Source of the DNA: Bacillota bacterium
Lineage (GTDB): Bacteria > Bacillota > Sulfobacillia > JACIYH01
Direction: 5' to 3'
NCBI GenBank assembly: GCA_030019365.1
Contig: JASEFA010000002.1
Span: 396,525-460,524 of the forward strand
Length of the DNA: 64,000 bases
Within the stretch, counting starts at the first letter, position 1. Every line of letters starts with the position of its first letter. This document shows, piece after piece, positions 1 through 12,911 of this stretch. The notes under the pieces were generated by a model. The model did no database searches, was not told where the DNA came from, and saw nothing but the letters and a program-made list of their open reading frames with translations. The translations under genes were made by a program, and so were the position numbers.

Positions 1-885
1 GACCTGGTTCAGGTGGCGGCGTATGGTGTCCACCGCCTCGGGCACGGCCGTGTCCACCTTGTTGATCACCACCGCGTCCGCCATGCGCAGGTTAGCTTCT
101 CCGGGATGGTACGTCACCTCGTGGCCAGCCCGGTGCGGGTCTGCCACCACGATGTGCAGATCCGGGCGGTAGAAGGGGAGGTCGTTGTTCCCCCCTTCCC
201 ACAGGATGACGTCGCCTTCCTTTTCCGCCTCGCGCAGGATCGCCGCGTAGTCCACCCCCGCGAAGACCACGTTCCCCCGCTCTATGTGGGCCTCGTACTC
301 TTCCCGCTCTTCGATGGTGCACCGGTGACGGTCCAGGTCCTCCCGGGTGGCGAAACGCTGCACGACCTGCTGGTCGAGTTGCCCATAGGGCATGGGGTGG
401 CGGACAACGACCGCCTTCTTGCCCATGGACCGCAAGATGTCGGCCACCCGCCGGGAGGTCTGAGACTTGCCCGCCCCTGTGCGCACCGCGCAAACCGAGA
501 TCACCGGGCGCGAGGACCTGATCATGGTGGTATCCGGGCCCATGATCCAGAAGTCGGTACCCAGGGCCAGCGCTTCCGAAGCCCGGTGCATCACGTACTC
601 GTGGGACACGTCACTGTAAGCAAACACCACCCGTTCCGCCTGGCGCAACTTGATGAGATGGCCCAGTTCCTCCTCGGGATAGATGGGGATGCCGTCGGGG
701 TAACCGGGTCCGGCCAGCTCCGGTGGGTAGCGCCGGCCGGCGATATCCGGGATCTGGGTGGCCGTGAAGGCCACCACCCGGAAGCGGGGGTTTTCCCGGA
801 AAAAGACGTTGAAGTTATGGAAATCCCGTCCCGCCGCCCCCATGATGAGAACCCGCACCGGGCGCTCTTCTCCCTGATTGACCAA
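1..885 (-). CDS. Cyclic 2,3-diphosphoglycerate synthetase-like GTPase, C-terminus cut by window edge
   Basis: The reading frame is open for 295 codons and runs off the left edge. The TTG start at 885 follows a GGGGAGGGA ribosome site five bases upstream. The N-terminus (about residues 10-20, VRVLIMGAAGR) looks like a Rossmann nucleotide-binding strand-loop. A P-loop-like stretch, CAVRTGAGKSQTSR, lies at about 132-145, and the last visible residues include VINKVDT, a G4-like NKxD motif. This pattern fits the family annotated as cyclic 2,3-diphosphoglycerate synthetase or uncharacterised GTPase (archaeal CpgS homologues). In bacteria such genes can accompany carbamoyltransferase or carbamate kinase genes, and argF is two genes upstream here. 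The substrate is unknown, and the CpgS reaction should not be assumed. Confidence 0.75.
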   Translation of the reverse strand, partial: MVNQGEERPVRVLIMGAAGRDFHNFNVFFRENPRFRVVAFTATQIPDIAGRRYPPELAGPGYPDGIPIYPEEELGHLIKLRQAERVVFAYSDVSHEYVMHRASEALALGTDFWIMGPDTTMIRSSRPVISVCAVRTGAGKSQTSRRVADILRSMGKKAVVVRHPMPYGQLDQQVVQRFATREDLDRHRCTIEEREEYEAHIERGNVVFAGVDYAAILREAEKEGDVILWEGGNNDLPFYRPDLHIVVADPHRAGHEVTYHPGEANLRMADAVVINKVDTAVPEAVDTIRRHLNQV

Positions 886-939
886 GGTAATCCCTCCCCG
901 AAGCTGTCTCCCGGCTACCGACCCCCTGCCCCGCGCCGC

Positions 940-2895
940 TCACTCCCGGGTGCGCGGCGTCTTGGTCCAGGTGCGGGGGTGCTTCCCCAGCTTCTTGAGC
1001 ACGAGGGCCGTAGCATACGGGGTGGGGAACAGGAAGGCCGCCAGGGGTAGGATGAGCAACTGCAACCACACCCATACCTGCCCCAGCCAGTGGCCGGGGC
1101 GACACCAGGTGTCCAGGTACGGCGAGTAGCGGCGGTACGTGTAGAACGTGAATCCCACATACACCAGGCTCATGACGTTGAGCACGTGACGTACCGCCGC
1201 CGGAACCACGTTCACGTCCAGGTACCCGGTGAGGAAAAGCATCAGGAAAAGAGGGGGCACGAAGGTGGCTGCCTGGTAAAGGGTCCACTCCACCTGCCCC
1301 TTGAGGAAGAGGGTACGCAGCAGCCTTTCCTTCTTTTCGCGGTCGTAATGCTGCTCCGACCTCACCTTGTCCATCACCAGCAGGTGGCCGGTGCCCCAGC
1401 GCAGGCGCTGGCGGAAGAAGGCCCGCACCGTGGGCGGGGTCTGCTCGCTGGAGGCGTATGGCAGGTACTCCGGCCATACGTCCGCCTCGAGGTAAGCACG
1501 CACCCCCAGCTCCAGGTCCTCCGTCAGGCAGGCGGGGTCGAAGCCCCCGATGGAACGCAACAGGGCATGATTCACCACCAGGTTGGTCCCGCCCACGAAG
1601 GGAAGGCGCCTGAAGAGCACGGGCAGGTACCAGTCGTGAGCCACGGCCTGGTACAGGGCAGCGACCTTGCACACGGGGCCCATCTGGTAGAAGTTCCGCA
1701 CCTGAAACACGGGGCCCTGGAATATGGCAGGCGGGTGCGCGTCGGTGAGCCAACGATATGCCACGTACATCAGCACCCGGTGATCGGGGCGGCTCTCGGC
1801 GTCGTAAAACGCACACAGAGTGGTGGACGGGTCCAGTTGAGAAAGGGCGTAGTTGAGGGCCCTTCCTTTGGTGGAAGGTACCAGGTGTCCCGTGCAGCTG
1901 CCTCCCAGGGCGCCGTCGAAGTCGTAGGGGACCTCCACCTGCCTCACCCGGGGACCCCCGCGACAGTCCAGGGCGGCCACGCAGGCGCGCACCACGTCCC
2001 CGGTGGTGGGGAAACACTCGGGAACGAGTTCTTCCAGCATCGCCGGCAAAGCTCCCCCATGCCGGCGCTTCGCCATCTGCCTCACCAGTCCCCGGGCCAC
2101 ACCCCCGGCCAGGGACAGAACCACGTCGCGGGAGACGGGACCCTCAAGAGGAAGCAGGGTGTGAGAAATCCGCAGCCAGACGGGACGGACGGCGCGCCCG
2201 GTCAGATGAAGGTAGGCCAGGACCACCGGCAGGGCCGCCGCCAGGTAGAGAGGGTATGCCCGCCGCGCCACCTCGGGACCGGCACCGTTGAATGCCCGGC
2301 GCACCAGGAACATCAACTGCCCGGGGCGAGCGGCACCCCCGTGCTGGAGGATACCCCACGCGATCTCCCGTACCAGGCCGCGTTCCTCCCGGGGGCCCAG
2401 GCGCAGGGAAGGGTGCCAGCCCAGAGCCCGGCCCAGGCGCGTCCCCGGCTGCCAGTACTCCTGGCCCAGACGCACCAGCAGTCCCAGCACCAGCAAGCAT
2501 CCCTGACCGCCCCCGCGCGCGGGCTCGGGTTCCCGCTTCAGGCTGGCCAGGGCGGCCGCCACGGCGGGGGTCCGCATGGCATCCCGAGCCGTCCTTTCCT
2601 TTTGGTCGGTGATGACCACCACTTCGTACCGGGAAGGAGGGTAGACGAGGCGCCCCATGTGCTCTATGGTGCGGCCGATGACATCTGCCTCGTTGCGGGC
2701 GGGAATGAGCACGCTGACAAAGGGCAACTCCTTCCCGAGGCGGGATGCCTCCCGTGATAGCATCTCCAGGCTGAGCGCGGGCCGGCGGTGCCAGTACGTG
2801 CGATCGGCGTGTCTTTTCCAGATAAAGAACCTAACAAAAAGACCAAAGAACACCAGGTACATGGCGACAGCCACCAGGTACAACCACCCGGGCAA
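940..2895 (-). CDS. Membrane glycosyltransferase family 2 with large internal insert
   Basis: 651 residues with a TTG start behind AGAGGGGGT. Membrane segments: one at the N-terminus (about 4-26) and several at the C-terminus (about 525-600). GT2 landmarks are PARNEAD at 65-71, a DxD-type DAES at 365-368, TEDLELG at 459-465 and QRLRW at 496-500. This is the order seen in processive inverting synthases that transfer sugars from nucleotide donors at the membrane. Between ITDQKER (about 95-101) and VEVPYDFDG (about 320) there is a region of roughly 200 residues with no GT2 motif. It is rich in Arg, Ala and Leu and includes a hydrophobic stretch near 213-233. Acceptor and product cannot be inferred. 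It sits between argF and the CpgS-like gene in the same direction. Confidence 0.8.
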   Translation of the reverse strand: MPGWLYLVAVAMYLVFFGLFVRFFIWKRHADRTYWHRRPALSLEMLSREASRLGKELPFVSVLIPARNEADVIGRTIEHMGRLVYPPSRYEVVVITDQKERTARDAMRTPAVAAALASLKREPEPARGGGQGCLLVLGLLVRLGQEYWQPGTRLGRALGWHPSLRLGPREERGLVREIAWGILQHGGAARPGQLMFLVRRAFNGAGPEVARRAYPLYLAAALPVVLAYLHLTGRAVRPVWLRISHTLLPLEGPVSRDVVLSLAGGVARGLVRQMAKRRHGGALPAMLEELVPECFPTTGDVVRACVAALDCRGGPRVRQVEVPYDFDGALGGSCTGHLVPSTKGRALNYALSQLDPSTTLCAFYDAESRPDHRVLMYVAYRWLTDAHPPAIFQGPVFQVRNFYQMGPVCKVAALYQAVAHDWYLPVLFRRLPFVGGTNLVVNHALLRSIGGFDPACLTEDLELGVRAYLEADVWPEYLPYASSEQTPPTVRAFFRQRLRWGTGHLLVMDKVRSEQHYDREKKERLLRTLFLKGQVEWTLYQAATFVPPLFLMLFLTGYLDVNVVPAAVRHVLNVMSLVYVGFTFYTYRRYSPYLDTWCRPGHWLGQVWVWLQLLILPLAAFLFPTPYATALVLKKLGKHPRTWTKTPRTRE

Positions 2896-2986: not shown

Positions 2987-3931
2987 CTACCCCTCGATGA
3001 CCAGAGCCAGGATGGCCTTCTGGATGTGGAGACGGTTTTCGGCCTGATCCCAAACCACCGACTGCGGGCCGTCGATGACCTCGTCGGTCACCTCCTGCCC
3101 CCGGTGGGCGGGGAGACAGTGCATGAAGACGGCTCCTGAGCCGGCGCGGGCCATCAGATCTGCGTTCACCTGGTAGGGGCCGAACACCCGCCGCCGCTGT
3201 TCTTCCTCAGCTTCCTGACCCATACTGGCCCAGACGTCCGTATACACGACATCGGCACCCGTCACGGCCTGCAGCGGGTCAGACACCACCTCCACCCGCC
3301 CGCCTGACTCCCGGGCGAACTGGCGGGCACGATCTACCACCCCGGGGTCAGGCTCATAGCCCTGAGGGGTAGCCACCACCACGTGCATCCCCACCCTGGA
3401 GCCGCCGAAGAGCAGGGAATGAGCCACGTTGTTCCCATCTCCGACGTAGGCCAGCTTGACGCCTTCCAGTCGGCCCTTCTTCTCCTTGACGGTGAGCAGG
3501 TCGCCCAGTATCTGGCAGGGGTGAGAGTAGTCGGTGAGCCCGTTGATCACCGGGATAGAGGCTGCGGCGGCCAGTTCCACCACGTCCGCATGGGAGTATG
3601 TACGGATCATGATGGCATCCAGGTACCGGGACAGCACTCTCCCGGTATCGGCGACGGTTTCTCCCCTGCGCAGCTGCAGCTCCGCTGCGGTCAGGTTCAG
3701 GGCGTGGCCGCCCAGCTGCACCATAGCCACCTCGAAGGAGACGCGGGTCCGGGTGGAAGGCTTGTGGAATATCATCCCCAACGTCTTCCCCACCAGTGGA
3801 CGGGCATCCATGCCGGCTTCAGCCATCATCTTGAAGTGCTCGGCGGTGGCCACCACCTGCATTATTTCCTCGCGGCTCAGGTCAGCGAGGGATACCACGT
3901 CACGACCCTTCATGGAAACGGCCAACTTCAT
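2987..3931 (-). CDS. argF: Ornithine carbamoyltransferase
   Basis: Cytosolic enzyme that makes citrulline from ornithine and carbamoyl phosphate (arginine synthesis, or the reverse step in arginine deiminase catabolism). Family signatures are all present: carbamoyl-phosphate loop STRTR (about 60), HPCQILGD, ornithine-loop region DVWASMG, and HCLPAHRG. The 314-residue length is normal. The start is ATG 3931 or the adjoining GTG 3934, just after GAGAGG; an internal ATG at 3913 (MKGRDVV) also matches the usual N-terminus. No other arginine gene is visible, so the context does not tell anabolic from catabolic use. The CpgS-like GTPase downstream hints at a carbamoyl-phosphate or carbamate kinase cluster continuing beyond the window. 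Confidence 0.95.
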   Translation of the reverse strand: MKLAVSMKGRDVVSLADLSREEIMQVVATAEHFKMMAEAGMDARPLVGKTLGMIFHKPSTRTRVSFEVAMVQLGGHALNLTAAELQLRRGETVADTGRVLSRYLDAIMIRTYSHADVVELAAAASIPVINGLTDYSHPCQILGDLLTVKEKKGRLEGVKLAYVGDGNNVAHSLLFGGSRVGMHVVVATPQGYEPDPGVVDRARQFARESGGRVEVVSDPLQAVTGADVVYTDVWASMGQEAEEEQRRRVFGPYQVNADLMARAGSGAVFMHCLPAHRGQEVTDEVIDGPQSVVWDQAENRLHIQKAILALVIEG

Positions 3932-4060
3932 CACCTCTCAAGCCAGCAGTCTACCACAACACTGACCCGGCTGCCAGGGCGCAGCGCGACAGACCGCAGC
4001 GCGACACTTCACACAAGCGGTGGACCAGCTGGCAGAACGGGCCTCCGCCCTCGAGGAAAA

Positions 4061-5137
4061 CTACCGCTCTGAAGGCGGGCGCGGTGCAGCGGGCACGAAA
4101 ACCTCACCGCGGAGGGCTAACCGGTAACCGCAGCGGGGGCAGTGCTGGTCACGCAGGGATGCCCTGGTGAGTTCCAGGCCCCGCCGCTCCAGCACCATAT
4201 GGCCGCACTGGGGGCAGGCGGTGTCGTTCCCCCGGCCCCACACGTTCCCCATGTAGACGTAGGAGAGCTTGCGCCGGGCTATCCCGGCGGCCCTGTCCAG
4301 CGTGGGGAACGGGGTGGGCGGCTCGGCGAAGCGGTAGTTGGGAAAGTACCGGGAGAAGTGGAGGGGGATGTCGGGAGACAACCCCGCCAGCCAGTCCACC
4401 AGCTGGCCGATCTCGGCGTCGGAATCGTTGTACCCCGGGATCAGCAGGTTCGTCACTTCCACATGGCAACCGGCCCGGTGGGCCGCCTCAACCGTGCGCA
4501 GCACGGGATCGCGCCCGCCCTTGCACACTTTGCGATAGAACTCGGGCCGGAAAGCCTTCACGTCCACGTTCATGGCGTCCACCAGGGGCAGCAGCCCCCG
4601 CAGGGGTGCTTCCTCAATGAATCCGTTGGTCACCAGGCAGTTCAGCAGTCCCTCCCGTTTCGCCAACTCGGCCGTCTCGGCCACATACTCGTACCAGATG
4701 GAGGGCTCGTTGTAGGTATAGGCCAGCCCAATCACGCGGGGCTCCTGCCGGCGGGCCGACAACGTCAGCTCCACCGCCCGGCCCGGCAACACCTCCACCG
4801 TGGGCGACTCCTCCTGGGAAATCGTCCAGTTCTGGCAGAAGCCGCAGGACAGGTTGCAGCCCACCGAGCCCAGCGAAAACAGGTAGGAACCCGGGAAGAA
4901 ATGGTAGAGGGGTTTCTTCTCGGTGGGATCGAGGGCGTACGAAGAAACCTGCGCGTAGTTCAGGCTGTACAGGACGCCGTCCACGTTCTTGCGCACGCGG
5001 CAGATGCCCCGCTGACCCGGGCGCAAGAAGCAGCGGTGCGGGCACAGGTGGCACCTGACCCGCCCTCCGTCTGCCCTCTCCCAGAACCGTGCCTCCTTCA
5101 CCGCATCACCGCCCCGCCAAGCCGACCCACGTTCCAC
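4061..5137 (-). CDS. amrS: AmmeMemoRadiSam system radical SAM enzyme
   Basis: Radical SAM protein with the cluster motif CNLSCGFC (Cys 94, 98, 101 from the GTG at 5137). It also has an N-terminal Cys group, CHLCPHRC plus a further Cys (29, 32, 36, 46), and a C-terminal pair of CxxC knuckles (CPQC, CPRC) likely to bind zinc. This layout is that of AmrS, the PflA-like member of the AmmeMemoRadiSam set. It overlaps nothing but follows the stop of the upstream fusion gene directly (TAG then GTG), so the two are co-translated. A second GTG at 5101 gives the family-typical N-terminus VKEARFWE. The substrate of this system is not established. Confidence 0.88.
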   Translation of the reverse strand: MERGSAWRGGDAVKEARFWERADGGRVRCHLCPHRCFLRPGQRGICRVRKNVDGVLYSLNYAQVSSYALDPTEKKPLYHFFPGSYLFSLGSVGCNLSCGFCQNWTISQEESPTVEVLPGRAVELTLSARRQEPRVIGLAYTYNEPSIWYEYVAETAELAKREGLLNCLVTNGFIEEAPLRGLLPLVDAMNVDVKAFRPEFYRKVCKGGRDPVLRTVEAAHRAGCHVEVTNLLIPGYNDSDAEIGQLVDWLAGLSPDIPLHFSRYFPNYRFAEPPTPFPTLDRAAGIARRKLSYVYMGNVWGRGNDTACPQCGHMVLERRGLELTRASLRDQHCPRCGYRLALRGEVFVPAAPRPPSER

Positions 5138-6469
5138 CTAGTGGTAGCGGGTGACCCGGAAGCGGAGCAACTCCACGTCCCGCTCGTCCGGGTGGATGCC
5201 GGCCTTCTGCTTCGCTATGGCCACCTGCTGCTCCGCCGTGTCCACACCCTCCAGATCGGGCAGCAACAACCCGGTCCGCCGTCCCTTGCGGACGATCACG
5301 CCGTAGCGGGAAGGATCAAGCTGGCCGAACCCTTCCACCGGCTCAGGTTCCTCCAGGATGTCCACCGAGCAGTCCAGGTAGGGCAACTCATCCAGGGTGA
5401 CGGGCGGAAAGCGGGGGTCCCTGGTCCCCGCGGATATGGCATTGTACATGATCTCTTCGGCCAGGGTGACCCGCACGGGTTCGATGGTGCCTATGCACCC
5501 GCGCAGGTCGCCTGCTTTCTTGAGGGAAACGAAAGCTCCCGCCCGGCGCCCGAACTCCTCGGGGACCTGGGCGGGAGGCTCTATCACCGAGCCATGGCGC
5601 AGGTAGTGCTCCAGAGAGCGGAAGGCCAGTTCCACGGGCCAGGAAGGGGGCGAGGTCCAGGTGGCCACCGCGTAGCCCACCCCGAACGGTCCCTCGTAGG
5701 AAACCACCCGCGGGCGCAGTCCCGTATCCCGCAGGGCGCCCATGAGCATGAAGAGGGGGCGCAGGCCGCACTCCCCCGCTCGCTCTACCAGATCTTCGTC
5801 CAGAGCCAGCAGGGCCCCCAGGTCGCCCTCCCGCAGGGCCGCGACCACCCGGTCGTCGAACTCCCGGCCGGCGGGGTCGAAGCCGGCCGGCGCTCCCGGG
5901 GTCAGACGGTGGGATAGGTCCCCGCTGGCGATCACCACCGCCCGGCGACCGGTGGACGCGATGGCCCGGGCCACCGCCTCGCCGAAACGGACCAGTTGTT
6001 CCCGCGGGAGGGGAGAGATACCGGTGGCGACCAGCGGGCAGTTCATCCCTGCTGCGCGTAAGTAGTAAAGGGGAACCGCCAGCCCGTGGTCGAGGAGCGT
6101 ACCGGAATAGCGCAGCATCCTGTCCCGGGCGAGCCGCACGGTGGGCACTTCCCGGGCTTCTGCCTCCTCTGCGATGGCGGCCAGCAGATCGCCGTCCACC
6201 CTCCACTCCATGCTCACCTGGGGAGCACCGAACATGCCGAGATCGCCGTGCAGCAAGGGGGCTTCCAGCAGGGGAACCCCCTCCCGGCCGGGAGGAGCAT
6301 GGGGACTGAACATAACCAGTACCCCGGGTTCGGCCTCCGCCACCGTGCGCCCCAGAACCCGTAGGGCTTCCCGGGTAGCCACCACCCTCCTGATCTCCCG
6401 TCCCCCCACCTCGGGAACGACGATGGGGGGGTGAGGAGCCAGAGCCCCCACCAGGATTTGCCCCTCCAT
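5138..6469 (-). CDS. Memo/LigB-like dioxygenase domain fused to AMMECR1 domain (AmmeMemoRadiSam proteins B and A)
   Basis: 443 residues; ATG 6469 is preceded by GGGGGAGGGA at five bases. Residues about 5-270 form a LigB/Memo-type domain of the class III extradiol dioxygenase fold, with candidate metal-site or active-site histidines in APHPP (13), FSPHAPP (57) and GDLSH (187). Residues about 278-443 form an AMMECR1 domain with its hallmark LRGCIGT (322-328). Both partners of the AmmeMemoRadiSam set are therefore in one chain, with the radical SAM partner immediately downstream. The conserved set is widespread in bacteria and archaea, but its reaction is unknown to me. Co-translation of the fusion with AmrS suggests a single functional complex. 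Confidence 0.87.
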   Translation of the reverse strand: MEGQILVGALAPHPPIVVPEVGGREIRRVVATREALRVLGRTVAEAEPGVLVMFSPHAPPGREGVPLLEAPLLHGDLGMFGAPQVSMEWRVDGDLLAAIAEEAEAREVPTVRLARDRMLRYSGTLLDHGLAVPLYYLRAAGMNCPLVATGISPLPREQLVRFGEAVARAIASTGRRAVVIASGDLSHRLTPGAPAGFDPAGREFDDRVVAALREGDLGALLALDEDLVERAGECGLRPLFMLMGALRDTGLRPRVVSYEGPFGVGYAVATWTSPPSWPVELAFRSLEHYLRHGSVIEPPAQVPEEFGRRAGAFVSLKKAGDLRGCIGTIEPVRVTLAEEIMYNAISAGTRDPRFPPVTLDELPYLDCSVDILEEPEPVEGFGQLDPSRYGVIVRKGRRTGLLLPDLEGVDTAEQQVAIAKQKAGIHPDERDVELLRFRVTRYH

Positions 6470-6606: not shown

Positions 6607-7455
6607 TCAGGGGCGCTCTCCCTCGGCGAAGTAACGGGCGGTGCCCAGGAATATGGCCCAGGCTACCAGCTTCTGGTAGTCAGGGTCGGTGAGCAGGCGG
6701 GCCTCGTCAGGGTTGGACATGAATCCCACCTCGACGGTTACGGCGGGCATGGTCACGTTATCCAGCACGTATTGCTTGGGACCGGGCAGGGCCAGCCGGT
6801 CGGTGCGCCTGGTGACCCGCACCAGCTCCCGCTGAATGCAGCGAGCGAGGCGGGCACTGTCGGGGTGGTTGGGGCGATAGAACGTCTGCGCCCCCCGCCA
6901 GTGAGGGGACGGCGTGGCATTGGCATGGATGCACAGGAACAGGTCAGCCCGGGCTCCCCGGGCGATCTCCGCCCGGCGCCTGAGGTCTATGGCCTTGACG
7001 TCGGGCACCTCAGGGGGGAGGCCGGACAGGTCCTCGTCCCGGTCCCTGGTCAGGAGGGCGCGGACCCCCGCAGCGGTGAGATACCGGGCCAGGTGGCGCG
7101 AGATCTCGAGCACCACGTCCTTCTCAAGCTCCCCCCGCGGACCGACCGCCCCCGGGTCCGGCCCTCCGTGGCCGGGGTCGATCACCACCACCCGGTTCAG
7201 CAACACTCCTCCCAGGGAAGGAGTTCCCCCCAGCACCCAGGCGGCGGCCACCAGCCAGCACAACCCGGCTGCCGCCACTCCCGCCGCCCACAGGAGCTTG
7301 GTGCCCCGGGGGAGCCACCACACCACCCCGGGCAGCAGGCGGCGCCCCCGTCCGGCCACCCCCCGGCGGCGGCCCGCCCGAGTGTGCTCCCCAGAACCCC
7401 GAGATGCGGAGACGTCGCGCAGACGAAGAAAACGTCCCGCGATGTCGCCGGGCAC
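6607..7455 (-). CDS. cwlD: Germination-specific N-acetylmuramoyl-L-alanine amidase CwlD
   Basis: Amidase_3 family zinc hydrolase. In Bacillus, CwlD removes peptide side chains from spore cortex peptidoglycan so that muramic-delta-lactam can form. The arginine-rich N-terminus (about 1-45) is followed by one membrane segment (about 52-72), an export or anchor signal. The catalytic domain shows DPGHGGPDPGAVG (zinc His), EKDVVLEIS (zinc Glu), HANA (zinc His) and EVGFMSNP (catalytic Glu). Length is 282 residues; GTG start after GGGGGGCGGAG. It lies downstream of rplM-rpsI as in Bacillus subtilis, where cwlD also follows that pair. Expression in sporulation is expected, but no clear sigma-E or sigma-G promoter was found upstream. 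Confidence 0.9.
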   Translation of the reverse strand: MPGDIAGRFLRLRDVSASRGSGEHTRAGRRRGVAGRGRRLLPGVVWWLPRGTKLLWAAGVAAAGLCWLVAAAWVLGGTPSLGGVLLNRVVVIDPGHGGPDPGAVGPRGELEKDVVLEISRHLARYLTAAGVRALLTRDRDEDLSGLPPEVPDVKAIDLRRRAEIARGARADLFLCIHANATPSPHWRGAQTFYRPNHPDSARLARCIQRELVRVTRRTDRLALPGPKQYVLDNVTMPAVTVEVGFMSNPDEARLLTDPDYQKLVAWAIFLGTARYFAEGERP

Positions 7456-8559: not shown

Positions 8560-9930
8560 CTAGCGCGACGGGCCCAGGGGCGACCGCCACGTGAAGAAGC
8601 TGGTGACGATGCGGACCTTCACCTGAAGGTCCACGGGGAGATCGGGGAAGATCCGCTCCCACCTCTTGCCCAGATCCTCCCGCCACAGGCGCGGGTAGCG
8701 GCGGTAAAATGCCCAACCGAAGCCATACACATCCGAATGGAATTCCTTCTGCAGCCGGCGCATGGTGGCCGTGATCTCGTCGGCGATGGTGCGGGACGCC
8801 GCCCCCTCCAGGCGATCGATCTCCTCGGGGGTCATGTCGTAGGTGGGCGAGAGCATCTCCAGCACCCCCGCCCGGACCCGGACCCTCACCTTCACGGAAG
8901 GAGAACCGCCGGTGAGCTGGGGCTCGACGCGAGCCTGCGCGCCTGCCACGTGCAGCACCGCGGGACCGGGGCCGGCCAGAGGAGCGGGTACCACCACCAG
9001 CCCCTGCTGCACCTTTCCCATGAGCCAGGCCAGCCCGCGGGCCTCCAGCTCGTTCAGAGTACCCACCATGCGGTCGCCCTTGAACACCGCCACCCCCGCC
9101 ACCCGCACGGCGACCGGGTCTTCGCCTTCGCCGCCCGAGGTAGCCTGCCCCCCGTGTCCCCCCTCCTGCGACCGGCCCGGTGCCTGGCGCGGTCCCTCGC
9201 CACCGGGACCGGGGCGGCTTTCCGCTTCCTCGGGGGCACCGGGCGGTCGTTCGCTAATCTTTCCCTCCGCGCTGGTCCGGTGGACCACGGGGAGTATGGG
9301 ATCCCGCCCCTCGGTGTGCACGGCCCTCAGGAAGCGGATAATAGTGCTCTCCGGCAAACCCAACGTCTCTGGCAGGCGGCGCAGCACTTCCGCCAGGGAG
9401 ACACCCGGAAGGATCTCCAGCCGGGTGCGCACTTCCAGGACGTCCCGGGGGGGACACGATGACACGGCCAGCTGGATCACCCGCCGGGTCTCCCGGTCCG
9501 AAGTGAGGTAGTCCAGCAGGGGAGCCAGCCCCGCCCGCGCTTCCTCTTCAGAAACCACCACCACCTGCAGGTGGCCCAGGTGCACAACGCGGGGAGAATA
9601 CTCCCCCAGCATGCGCACGGCCTCCGAGACCCCCCGGGCCTCCACCACCTGGTTGAGGAAAGGTGGTTGGGGAGCACCTCCACCTCCACCCCCCCCGCCG
9701 CCTCCCCCACCCACGCCGCCCGCCAGGAAACGGGGGATGGCAATCTGGGCGGTAAGCCGGAACGGTTGCTCTTTCCCCCGGTCCAGGCCCAGGGCGATTA
9801 TGGCGGCCGCCCGATCGGGTTCTACGCGGTCCCAGCATCCCGTCGTGAGGAGGACGAACAGCAGCAACCAGGGCAAGACCCCCCGGCTCTGTCGCCCCCC
9901 GGACAGGCGAGGGGATGCGCGCGAGCTCAT
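8560..9930 (-). CDS. gerC: Ger(x)C family spore germination lipoprotein
   Basis: 456 residues, starting at ATG 9930, which overlaps the gerB stop in ATGA. A signal peptide with lipobox LLTTGC followed by WDRVEPD is the GerC-family hallmark; the lipidated Cys anchors the protein to the inner spore membrane. The C-terminal half (about 240-456) carries the Ger(x)C domain. Two unusual low-complexity regions: a glycine run encoded near 9680-9722 (about 14 Gly), and a Pro/Gly/Glu-rich linker encoded near 9120-9245. Together with GerA and GerB it would form a germinant receptor. The germinant cannot be told from sequence. Confidence 0.9.
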   Translation of the reverse strand: MSSRASPRLSGGRQSRGVLPWLLLFVLLTTGCWDRVEPDRAAAIIALGLDRGKEQPFRLTAQIAIPRFLAGGVGGGGGGGGGGGGAPQPPFLNQVVEARGVSEAVRMLGEYSPRVVHLGHLQVVVVSEEEARAGLAPLLDYLTSDRETRRVIQLAVSSCPPRDVLEVRTRLEILPGVSLAEVLRRLPETLGLPESTIIRFLRAVHTEGRDPILPVVHRTSAEGKISERPPGAPEEAESRPGPGGEGPRQAPGRSQEGGHGGQATSGGEGEDPVAVRVAGVAVFKGDRMVGTLNELEARGLAWLMGKVQQGLVVVPAPLAGPGPAVLHVAGAQARVEPQLTGGSPSVKVRVRVRAGVLEMLSPTYDMTPEEIDRLEGAASRTIADEITATMRRLQKEFHSDVYGFGWAFYRRYPRLWREDLGKRWERIFPDLPVDLQVKVRIVTSFFTWRSPLGPSR

Positions 9931-11039
9931 GTTCCACCCCGGCCCCTCTCCGGTCTGAGCCCGCGCAGGGCAGCCACCAGCCACAAGAGTAGCACCACCG
10001 CAATCAGCCCTGCTACGGTCACGGGCACGAACACCCGGGTCCAGACCTGAATGAGGACCGCCAGATCCTCGGGAAGAGACACCGCGCCGGCGTAGATCGC
10101 CGCCGTCCACAGGGGAAGCAGGGGGCGGGCGTCCACCAGGCCCGCCACGCGGGCGCTGCCCCAGGCGCACGCCCAGAGCAGCCAGGCCACCTGGGCGAAA
10201 CCCATGGCCGTCCACCCGATCACCACCAGCACGTCGACCCGCTCGAGCAGGGGGAGGAACATGCGCACCGAGCGCACCAGCTCGATGGTGGGCAGGGTGA
10301 GGCGGGACATCCCGTACCAGCCTGCCGTGCCCTGACCCAGGGTGAAGAGGAGCCAGCCCGCCAGAACGGAAGCGGCAGCCGCACCGAGGACGGCCGCGCG
10401 CAACTCGCGGGCGCCGCGAAAGGCATGCGCCCCCATGGCCCCGAGCACCTGCTGCCCCCAGAACCCGGCTGCGATGGCAGCGCTCACCAGCGGGGGACCA
10501 GGCCCCCGGCTCAGCACGGGGAGGAGGTAACGGGCGTCGAACAGAGGCAGGAACCCCGCGATCAGGATCACCGATACCGCCGCCACGGCCAGGAAGGCGA
10601 TCACCGCCGCCCGCGCCACCACCTCCAGGCCGTAATACGCCCCCACCGCGGCCTGCCCCACTATGACCGCGGCCACCACCCAGGGAGGGGTGCGGGGCAG
10701 CATGAGCAACCCCACCATGTCCGTCCCGGCCCGCACCGCATACGCAGCCAGGAACGCAGTCCCCAGCACGAAGATACCGGCCGGTATCTTGCCCAACCAG
10801 CGGCCCAGGACCACCTGGGCCTGATCTGGCAGGCCCATATGAGGCAGCCGGCCCGCCAGGGCGGCCACGACCAGGGCTACGGGTATCACCACCAGAGCCC
10901 CGGCCAGCAGGCCCAGCCAGCCGTCCTCCCTGCCGGCAGTGGCGATCACCGAAGGCAGGTAGAGCTCGGAGGTGGGCCAGACCACGCAGGTGCCCAGGGC
11001 GATGCCCTCGGTGACGGAGATCTGGGGACGGGGCCTCAT
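9927..11039 (-). CDS. gerB: GerB-type germinant receptor permease
   Basis: 370 residues, ATG 11039 overlapping the gerA stop (ATGA). About ten hydrophobic segments are visible, starting with ISVTEGIALGTCVVWPTSE at the N-terminus. This fits the GerAB/ArcD/ProY amino-acid-transporter-like family, the subunit thought to bind the germinant. It acts in the inner spore membrane with GerA and GerC. Upstream in-frame codons to 11171 are a shadow of gerA and lack a better ribosome site. Confidence 0.9.
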   Translation of the reverse strand: MRPRPQISVTEGIALGTCVVWPTSELYLPSVIATAGREDGWLGLLAGALVVIPVALVVAALAGRLPHMGLPDQAQVVLGRWLGKIPAGIFVLGTAFLAAYAVRAGTDMVGLLMLPRTPPWVVAAVIVGQAAVGAYYGLEVVARAAVIAFLAVAAVSVILIAGFLPLFDARYLLPVLSRGPGPPLVSAAIAAGFWGQQVLGAMGAHAFRGARELRAAVLGAAAASVLAGWLLFTLGQGTAGWYGMSRLTLPTIELVRSVRMFLPLLERVDVLVVIGWTAMGFAQVAWLLWACAWGSARVAGLVDARPLLPLWTAAIYAGAVSLPEDLAVLIQVWTRVFVPVTVAGLIAVVLLLWLVAALRGLRPERGRGGT

Positions 11040-12712
11040 CGCTCTCCGCCCCCCCGCCGCTTCCCCTTCGCGGGACGACCGGGGGGAGGCGGCGGACCGG
11101 GGGGCTGGGGGTAGGGCATGCGCATGGGTTCGCCCCGACCCAGCTGGGAGGGACGCCTGACCATGGCCCACCAGGGAACCCGCAAGATCACATCCTTGAA
11201 GTCCGCCAGGGTGGTGGGGATGTATGGGAAGGCGAAAGGAACGCCGAAGGAACGCAGAGAGAGCACGTAATACAGGGCGACCATGAGGGCGGCGGCCAGA
11301 CCGAATATTCCCAGGGACCCGGCCGCCAGGGTGAAGAGAAGCCGGGGGAACCAGAGGGCCAGTAAAGCCACGTAGCCGGGGATGGCAAAGGAGGTGATGG
11401 CGGTAATCCCCAGCACCACCAGCATGATGGGACTGATGAGGGCCGCCCGCACGGCGGCATCGCCGATCACCAGTGCCCCCACCACGCTGACGGCCTGGCC
11501 CACCTGGCGCGGCATGCGCAGGCCTGCTTCCCGCAACAGTTCGAAAGTGGCCCCCATGATGACGGCTTCCGCCAGCGAGGGCAGAGGCACCCCTTCCCGG
11601 GCCGCCTGCAGGCGCAGGAAGAAGGCGGTGGGGAGCATCTCCGCATGGTAGGTGGTGAGCGCCACGTAGGCCCCCGGGGCAAGCACGGTGATCGCGAGGC
11701 CGAGCAAACGCAGCGTGCGGTTGAGGAAGGCGAAGTAGGGGTTGACGTAGTAGTCCTCCGAGGAAGTGAGGAGGCTACCCAGGTCGCAGGGGACGATGAG
11801 GGCAAAGGGGGTGTTATCCACCAGGACGATCGCCCGCCCCTGCACCAGGGCGGCAGCAGCCCGGTCGGGCCGCTCCGTGGCCAGCACCAGCGGGAGGGGA
11901 GAGGCGGGAGCATCGGAGATGAACTCACTCACCGCGTTGGACCCCATGGGATCTTCGATCTTGATGCGCTCGAGGCGCGACAGCAGCTCGGACACCAGCT
12001 CCCGGCCCGCCACTCCCTCTATGTAAGCCACTTCCACCGCCAGGTTGGCCAGGTCGCCCAGGATGAGCCTGCGCAGGCGCAGCCTGGGCGTCTTCACCCA
12101 CCTGCGCAGCAGGGTGGCGTTGACGGAGATGCTCTCCACGAATCCTTCCCGGGGACCCTTCATGGTAGACTCCAGCGTGGGCTCTTCCAGCTTGCGGGTC
12201 TCAAACCCGCGCGTCCCGCAGAGGAGTGCTCGCTCCTCCCCTTCCAGGAAGAGAACGGTATCGCCGGAGAGGAGGCCGTACAGCACCTCCCTCCACTCCC
12301 CGACCCGCCTCAGTTCACCCGCGTGCACCAGCACAGGGCGGCCCGGGAAGGCCCGGTCAGGCGTCCCCAGGACACCGGCCTCGTAGGTGACCGCCCGGAT
12401 GATCACGTCGGACACGGCCCCCGGGTCCGCCATGGCCTGCAGGTAGCATACCAGCGCCTCCTGGGTCTCACCCCTTCCCTTTCGCACTTCACACCGCCTG
12501 ACGACCAGGTCGGCAGGATCCCCCAACGCCATCCGGAGCCACTTTTCGTTGTCGTCCAACCGGCGGTAGATACGGGAGGGCAGGCACTCGCCCTCGGCCT
12601 CCACCCGCAGGTGGTCGACCGGGGGAGGCCCCTCCCCCGCGTCGGGCGGGCTGGGGGCCGCCAGCTGCCGCCTCACCAGCCGCCGCAAACCCTCCATGGC
12701 GCCGAAGGGCAT
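11036..12712 (-). CDS. gerA: GerA family spore germination protein
   Basis: 558 residues from ATG 12712, with an AGGGGGTGGG ribosome site. The N-terminal cytosolic domain has the family features KWLRMALGDPADLVVRR and TKxxEPxxE-like RKLEEPTLESTMKGPREGFVESI (split across residues about 160-190). About five membrane segments follow in the second half (for example GPYVALTTYHAEMLPTAFFL region and the IPGYVALLALWFPRLLF region). The tail is proline-rich. First gene of gerA-gerB-gerC with 4-base overlaps, preceded by a forespore-type promoter candidate. Confidence 0.92.
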   Translation of the reverse strand: MPFGAMEGLRRLVRRQLAAPSPPDAGEGPPPVDHLRVEAEGECLPSRIYRRLDDNEKWLRMALGDPADLVVRRCEVRKGRGETQEALVCYLQAMADPGAVSDVIIRAVTYEAGVLGTPDRAFPGRPVLVHAGELRRVGEWREVLYGLLSGDTVLFLEGEERALLCGTRGFETRKLEEPTLESTMKGPREGFVESISVNATLLRRWVKTPRLRLRRLILGDLANLAVEVAYIEGVAGRELVSELLSRLERIKIEDPMGSNAVSEFISDAPASPLPLVLATERPDRAAAALVQGRAIVLVDNTPFALIVPCDLGSLLTSSEDYYVNPYFAFLNRTLRLLGLAITVLAPGAYVALTTYHAEMLPTAFFLRLQAAREGVPLPSLAEAVIMGATFELLREAGLRMPRQVGQAVSVVGALVIGDAAVRAALISPIMLVVLGITAITSFAIPGYVALLALWFPRLLFTLAAGSLGIFGLAAALMVALYYVLSLRSFGVPFAFPYIPTTLADFKDVILRVPWWAMVRRPSQLGRGEPMRMPYPQPPGPPPPPGRPAKGKRRGGGER

Positions 12713-12736
12713 AACCCACCCCCTGAGATCACCTGC

Positions 12737-12767
12737 TATTATGCCGCCGGGTCGCCCCTCCCCATAC
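12737..12767 (-). promoter_or_regulatory. Candidate sigma-G/sigma-F type promoter of gerABC
   Basis: On the minus strand CATAATA (12743-12737) matches the sigma-G/F -10 pattern CATNHTA. GTATG (12767-12763) matches the -35 core GNATR, with a 19-base spacer, one more than usual. The implied start is about 17 bases before gerA, just ahead of its ribosome site. gerA-type operons are forespore genes, so the match is plausible but unproven. Confidence 0.45.
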
Positions 12768-12911
12768 AAATCCCCTTCGGCCAGCCTGGATCCCACCGTG
12801 GCCCTGTTGCGGCTGTTCCTGTCCGCCCTGGCCGGAGGCATCATCGGCCTGAACATCCGCGGGCTGGCGCCGCCCCACCCGGTGCCGGCGCGCCAGCGCC
12901 CCAAGCGCTAG
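12741..12911 (+). CDS. Possible small membrane protein, opposite strand
   Basis: A 56-codon frame fills the gap between truA and gerA on the opposite strand; its stop TAG overlaps the truA stop. From codon 15 on, nearly all third positions are G or C, like a real gene here. One hydrophobic segment (about 19-40) reads VALLRLFLSALAGGIIGLN, which resembles the first helix of MgtC/SapB proteins, followed by a Pro/Arg tail. Against it: no clear ribosome site, and the start codon lies in the gerA promoter candidate. It could be a gene remnant or chance. Confidence 0.25.
   Translation: MPPGRPSPYKSPSASLDPTVALLRLFLSALAGGIIGLNIRGLAPPHPVPARQRPKR

Follow-up and report, generated by a model that had tools for sequence, protein, structure and literature searches.

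AmmeMemoRadiSam is a three-part set, represented by the models TIGR04335 (protein A), TIGR04336 (protein B), and TIGR04337 (radical SAM enzyme), and at the system level it has received a passing mention (PMC7159879). Human MEMO1, a cancer-linked protein whose molecular function is not known, binds Fe via H49, H81, and C244, has D189 and H192 close to this site, and had no activity on the catechols tested (PMC11081632). Bacterial relatives of MEMO1 belong to a conserved, widespread enzyme set without a known reaction. An initial annotation of the locus studied here described the reaction as unresolved, in agreement with both of these sources, and our literature search found neither the fused form nor the bacterial reaction described in any paper.

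Here, we analyzed a 64,000-nucleotide stretch of a Bacillota genome (the window), in which two adjoining genes are, with a probability of roughly 0.97, an AmmeMemoRadiSam unit. The pair is a standard unit of the fused type typical of the phylum, with AmrBA followed directly by AmrS. The genes of the locus lie on the minus strand throughout, in the transcriptional order rplM, rpsI, CwlD-like amidase gene, AmrBA fusion, amrS, argF, glycosyltransferase gene, and part of X1, with the following features:

5138 to 6469, minus strand: AmrBA fusion gene, 443 aa, ATG start at 6469, TAG stop at 5140-5138
5666 to 6445, minus strand: LigB/extradiol-dioxygenase-fold domain of AmrBA, aa 9-268, PF02900, putative site residues H13, H57, D184, H187, and C234
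5147 to 5635, minus strand: AMMECR1 domain of AmrBA, aa 279-441, PF01871 and TIGR04335, invariant L322-R323-G324-C325, D351, R353, and F354
4061 to 5101, minus strand: amrS, the radical SAM partner, TIGR04337, conserved start GTG 5101, alternative upstream GTG 5137
2987 to 3934, minus strand: argF, ornithine carbamoyltransferase, TIGR00658 at 444.7 bits, above cut-off
943 to 2895, minus strand: family-2 glycosyltransferase, 651 aa, downstream of argF
1 to 939, minus strand: X1, cyclic-2,3-diphosphoglycerate-synthetase-like gene, partial, cut by the window edge, the remainder being masked N in the genome

All three parts of AmmeMemoRadiSam are encoded together at this locus. In the fusion protein, Pfam places LigB (PF02900) at aa 9-268 with 135.7 bits and AMMECR1 (PF01871) at aa 279-441 with 162.2 bits. 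Of the NCBIfam models, protein A (TIGR04335) matches the fusion at 131.9 bits against a cut-off of 99, protein B (TIGR04336) passes marginally (29.2 bits; cut-off, 26), and the radical SAM model (TIGR04337) matches AmrS at 321.1 bits (cut-off, 220). With every part present and all three models above cut-off, the name AmmeMemoRadiSam in the initial annotation was right, as were its coordinates and strand for the fusion and AmrS. It had placed argF upstream; argF lies transcriptionally downstream of amrS, and the upstream neighbor is the CwlD-like amidase gene. Elsewhere in the window, at 8560-12904 on the minus strand, three adjoining genes resemble a spore-germination gerA-type operon, as judged by eye from their translations.

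The arrangement had been regarded as unusually compact, but the fused two-gene form is the norm in both class and phylum. Among 154 genomes of the class, AmrS was above cut-off in 66, AMMECR1 in 58, and both in 56, with Pfam Memo above cut-off in only 14. AmrS directly follows the fusion in 34 of the 35 class loci that have one, and in the window as well. In a phylum sample of 289 genomes, AMMECR1 was found in 221 and AmrS above cut-off in 212, and AmrS adjoins the AMMECR1 gene in 30/30 phylum loci examined, these being the best-scoring AMMECR1 matches rather than a random draw. Twenty-eight of these loci hold complete fusions, one is cut by a contig end (L139), and one consists of two adjoining genes (L125). 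Treponema, Coriobacteriia, and other assemblies likewise contain the fused form. LigB-AMMECR1 with an adjoining AmrS is the usual form across class and phylum, and the adjacency, for which the initial annotation had proposed a survey of other genomes, is strongly conserved and far beyond chance. AmrS is not always required by the fusion, because one genome (G125) has the fusion without any AmrS; the same holds for G126, a genome only 77% complete.

An upstream rplM-rpsI-cwlD block is vertically conserved in part of the class, as might be expected if the adjacency were mere inherited gene order with no functional coupling. However, the pair stays intact where the upstream flank changes (L057, L063, L067, L069, and L071) and in distant phyla (Treponema L038; Coriobacteriia L041, L042, and L045), and we regard inherited order as a highly improbable explanation.

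Two further arrangements were seen in the class. In two genomes without an AMMECR1 match, a Pfam Memo gene is divergent from an amrS-like gene (G007:C56, L115; G153:C100, L116), and several genomes of family f34 (G078-G081) have multiple AmrS-like matches, up to nine, besides the fusion-linked copy.

The stop of the fusion and the start of amrS had been described as touching (TAG then GTG), which is true only with the most upstream possible start, GTG 5137. The gap is likely about 36 bp, because homology of AmrS starts at VKEARFWE (GTG 5101) and because the reading frame of a sister species (L050) is interrupted in the interval from the fusion's stop to the VKEARFWE start codon. In relatives, the gaps are mostly -40 to +150 bp with a median of about 24, approximate values estimated from the first conserved Cys. 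Coupled expression of the fusion and amrS stays plausible; literal stop-start contact does not. The amrS gene of L050, from a species of the same genus, has an in-frame TAG (7199-7201, minus strand) at residue 270, an Arg in the window, and its frame beyond that point stays conserved; sequencing error, a pseudogene, or readthrough may account for it.

An AlphaFold2 model of the fusion (mean pLDDT, 94.5; pTM, 0.89) is a confident single chain with both known folds. The closest fold to the first domain is that of TK2203 (5hee; VIA Z 34.4, rmsd 2.1, 255 aligned residues), with aminophenol 1,6-dioxygenase at Z 30.5 and MEMO1 farther off (VIA Z 20.0, rmsd 3.1, 230 aligned, 14% identity). Pfam reported only LigB and AMMECR1 for the window protein, with no match to PF01875 (Memo) there or elsewhere in its own genome; fusions of two relatives pass PF01875 narrowly (G036, 27.9 bits; G125, 32 bits; cut-off, 27). 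The metal-site residues, on which the initial annotation had made its reading depend, are intact: H13, H57, D184, H187, and C234 are invariant in an alignment of 42/42 relatives and likewise in another set of 32, comprising 28 phylum fusions and four class fusions, of which two were already in the first set. Glu233, beside Cys234, is present in 35/42 and 26/32 relatives, and pairwise and profile alignments set it, not Cys234, opposite the dioxygenase Glu. Because Glu233 varies and Cys234 does not, we favor Cys234 as the predicted metal ligand. Stand-alone LigB relatives have Asp in the column of Cys234, and a Pfam Memo protein of the same class has a Cys that aligns with MEMO1 Cys244. An unfused, divergent LigB, AMMECR1, and AmrS locus (L088:7928-9323, plus strand) has Asp in place of Cys at the third metal position. 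Judged from sequence and predicted fold, the first domain is LigB-type by family and Memo-like in its putative His-His-Cys site, its Cys234 corresponding to the iron-binding Cys244 of MEMO1. The label "Memo-like domain" given initially therefore holds for the site residues but not for the family, which by HMM and fold is LigB, closest to TK2203, and not Pfam Memo.

With such folds, the first domain could be a genuine extradiol dioxygenase that uses O2 on an aromatic substrate prepared by AmrS. Dioxygenases stand beside TK2203 among its closest structures, H13, H57, and H187 are conserved, and Glu233 aligns with the dioxygenase Glu; the invariant residue, however, is Cys and no carboxylate, and MEMO1, which has the Cys site, lacked dioxygenase activity on tested catechols (PMC11081632). 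Furthermore, neither haem-copper oxidase nor cytochrome bd had a match in the window's own genome (97.8% complete), which is in line with an anaerobic host. Because neither terminal oxidase was found, an O2-dependent step is less likely, and we consider a dioxygenase role improbable overall.

The AMMECR1 domain resembles PH0010 (1vaj; VIA Z 22.9), and its columns L322-R323-G324-C325, D351, R353, and F354 are invariant in the alignment of relatives. Among the AmrS cysteines, N-terminal C17/C20/C24/C34 and radical-SAM C82/C86/C89 are invariant in 58/58 aligned relatives, as are C-terminal C296/C299/C321/C324 in 45/45. After its own family, AmrS matched best to glycyl-radical activases (PFLA, 56.9 bits) and, in the PDB, to PFL-AE, and related radical-SAM domains are found in peptide-processing systems (PMC7159879). 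AmrS might accordingly be an activase-like modifier of a protein or peptide, with AMMECR1-Memo as target or delivery factor and no second enzyme involved. Yet we noticed neither a glycyl-radical enzyme nor a precursor peptide next to the conserved pair, and conservation of the metal-site and AMMECR1 residues is of the kind seen in active sites; we think this role, too, is unlikely.

We tentatively prefer, at somewhat less than even odds, a two-step modification of one substrate by a radical-SAM and a non-heme-iron enzyme. The parts, residues, adjacency, and folds described above would suit such a scheme, as would the joint presence of AMMECR1 and AmrS in 56 of the 58 AMMECR1 genomes of the class; the metal, the order of steps, and the substrate are what we infer. 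AmrS would cleave SAM at a [4Fe-4S] cluster held by its CX3CX2C motif, and the 5'-deoxyadenosyl radical would act on the substrate. The same or the next intermediate would then pass to the AmrBA fusion, where the first domain may bind Fe(II) via His13, His57, and Cys234, with Asp184/His187 as presumed second-sphere acid/base, and carry out another step, redox or hydrolytic, for which O2 is not necessarily required. Through the invariant R323, C325, D351, and R353, the AMMECR1 domain may hold or covalently tether the substrate, and having both domains on one chain would keep an unstable intermediate local. The class neighbors argF, carbamate kinase, and ornithine-fermentation genes hint weakly at an amino-acid-fermentation metabolite as the substrate.

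In the class, argF lies downstream of amrS in 27/35 loci, plus the window, and about eleven loci have carbamate kinase (arcC) between the two. About sixteen carry ornithine-fermentation genes upstream, identified by the Pfam matches of representative members: racemase, D-ornithine aminomutase, MutL-like, thiolase subunit, and diaminopentanoate dehydrogenase. Several loci (L063, L064, L082, L083, and others) form a long same-strand cluster of ornithine-fermentation genes, AmrBA-AmrS, carbamate kinase (not in all), argF, and X1. At the window locus, argF is the sole adjoining gene connected with ornithine fermentation. Conserved "neighbors" on opposite frames proved to be shadow ORFs and were removed.

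X1 itself is a highly conserved P-loop protein (about 65-70% identical; full copy at L067:11415-12809, plus strand) without an NCBIfam match, its only remote match being to cyclic 2,3-diphosphoglycerate synthetase. In many genomes of the class it lies next to arcC-argF, at times as two copies, and about ten class loci have the gene of the window's family-2 glycosyltransferase near X1/argF. X1 co-occurs with AMMECR1 in 56/58 in the class, and a tight functional link was at first considered. We downgraded it, as the association is weak across the phylum sample of 289, where by our own tally AMMECR1 is present in 75/87 genomes with X1 versus 146/202 without.

From these neighbors, the system could serve ornithine/citrulline fermentation in the class by modifying an intermediate or an enzyme from the adjoining genes. 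The recurrence of argF, arcC, and the aminomutase, racemase, and thiolase genes and the tracking of AMMECR1 by X1 within the class speak for such a role. However, the ornithine-arcC-argF-X1 cluster also exists without AmrBA-AmrS (L109), as does arcC-argF-X1 alone (L107 and L110), the window locus has no adjoining ornithine-fermentation gene apart from argF, and most phylum hosts lack X1 (87/289, versus 221/289 for AMMECR1), so that we hold a fermentation role to be doubtful. We read the argF/ornithine context as lineage-level clustering with a possible metabolic link that is not phylum-wide. It would be similarly speculative to propose jointly that, in a LigB-family domain, a His-His-Cys site is a marker of pairing with AMMECR1 irrespective of the Memo family and that the class pair functions within a module for arginine/ornithine fermentation, together with ornithine aminomutase, carbamate kinase, ArgF, and the cyclic-phosphoglycerate-synthetase-like P-loop protein. 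If membership in that module were true, the Memo/AMMECR1/radical-SAM reaction would gain a concrete metabolic context.

Because the fused form is common in the phylum, it provides an uncomplicated two-gene pair for expression and assay, with the invariant Cys and the ornithine gene context as concrete points to examine. The window pair is real but not special, an ordinary member of a known set.

As in AmmeMemoRadiSam elsewhere (TIGR04335/TIGR04336/TIGR04337), three models pass and the genes adjoin; here, the A and B parts share one chain, and the B part is barely above cut-off. With MEMO1 and PF01875, the first domain shares the superfamily fold and the pattern of His-His-Cys plus Asp/His, but it has no PF01875 match and is much nearer to LigB-type structures. 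To TK2203 (5hee) and the LigB-family dioxygenases it is closest in fold and alike in PF02900, whereas TK2203 has Asp near the position aligned with Cys234 and no AMMECR1 domain. PH0010 (1vaj) and MM0484 (1zq7) share the PF01871 domain and its LRGCIG motif; they are stand-alone proteins, whereas AMMECR1 in the window is fused to a LigB domain.
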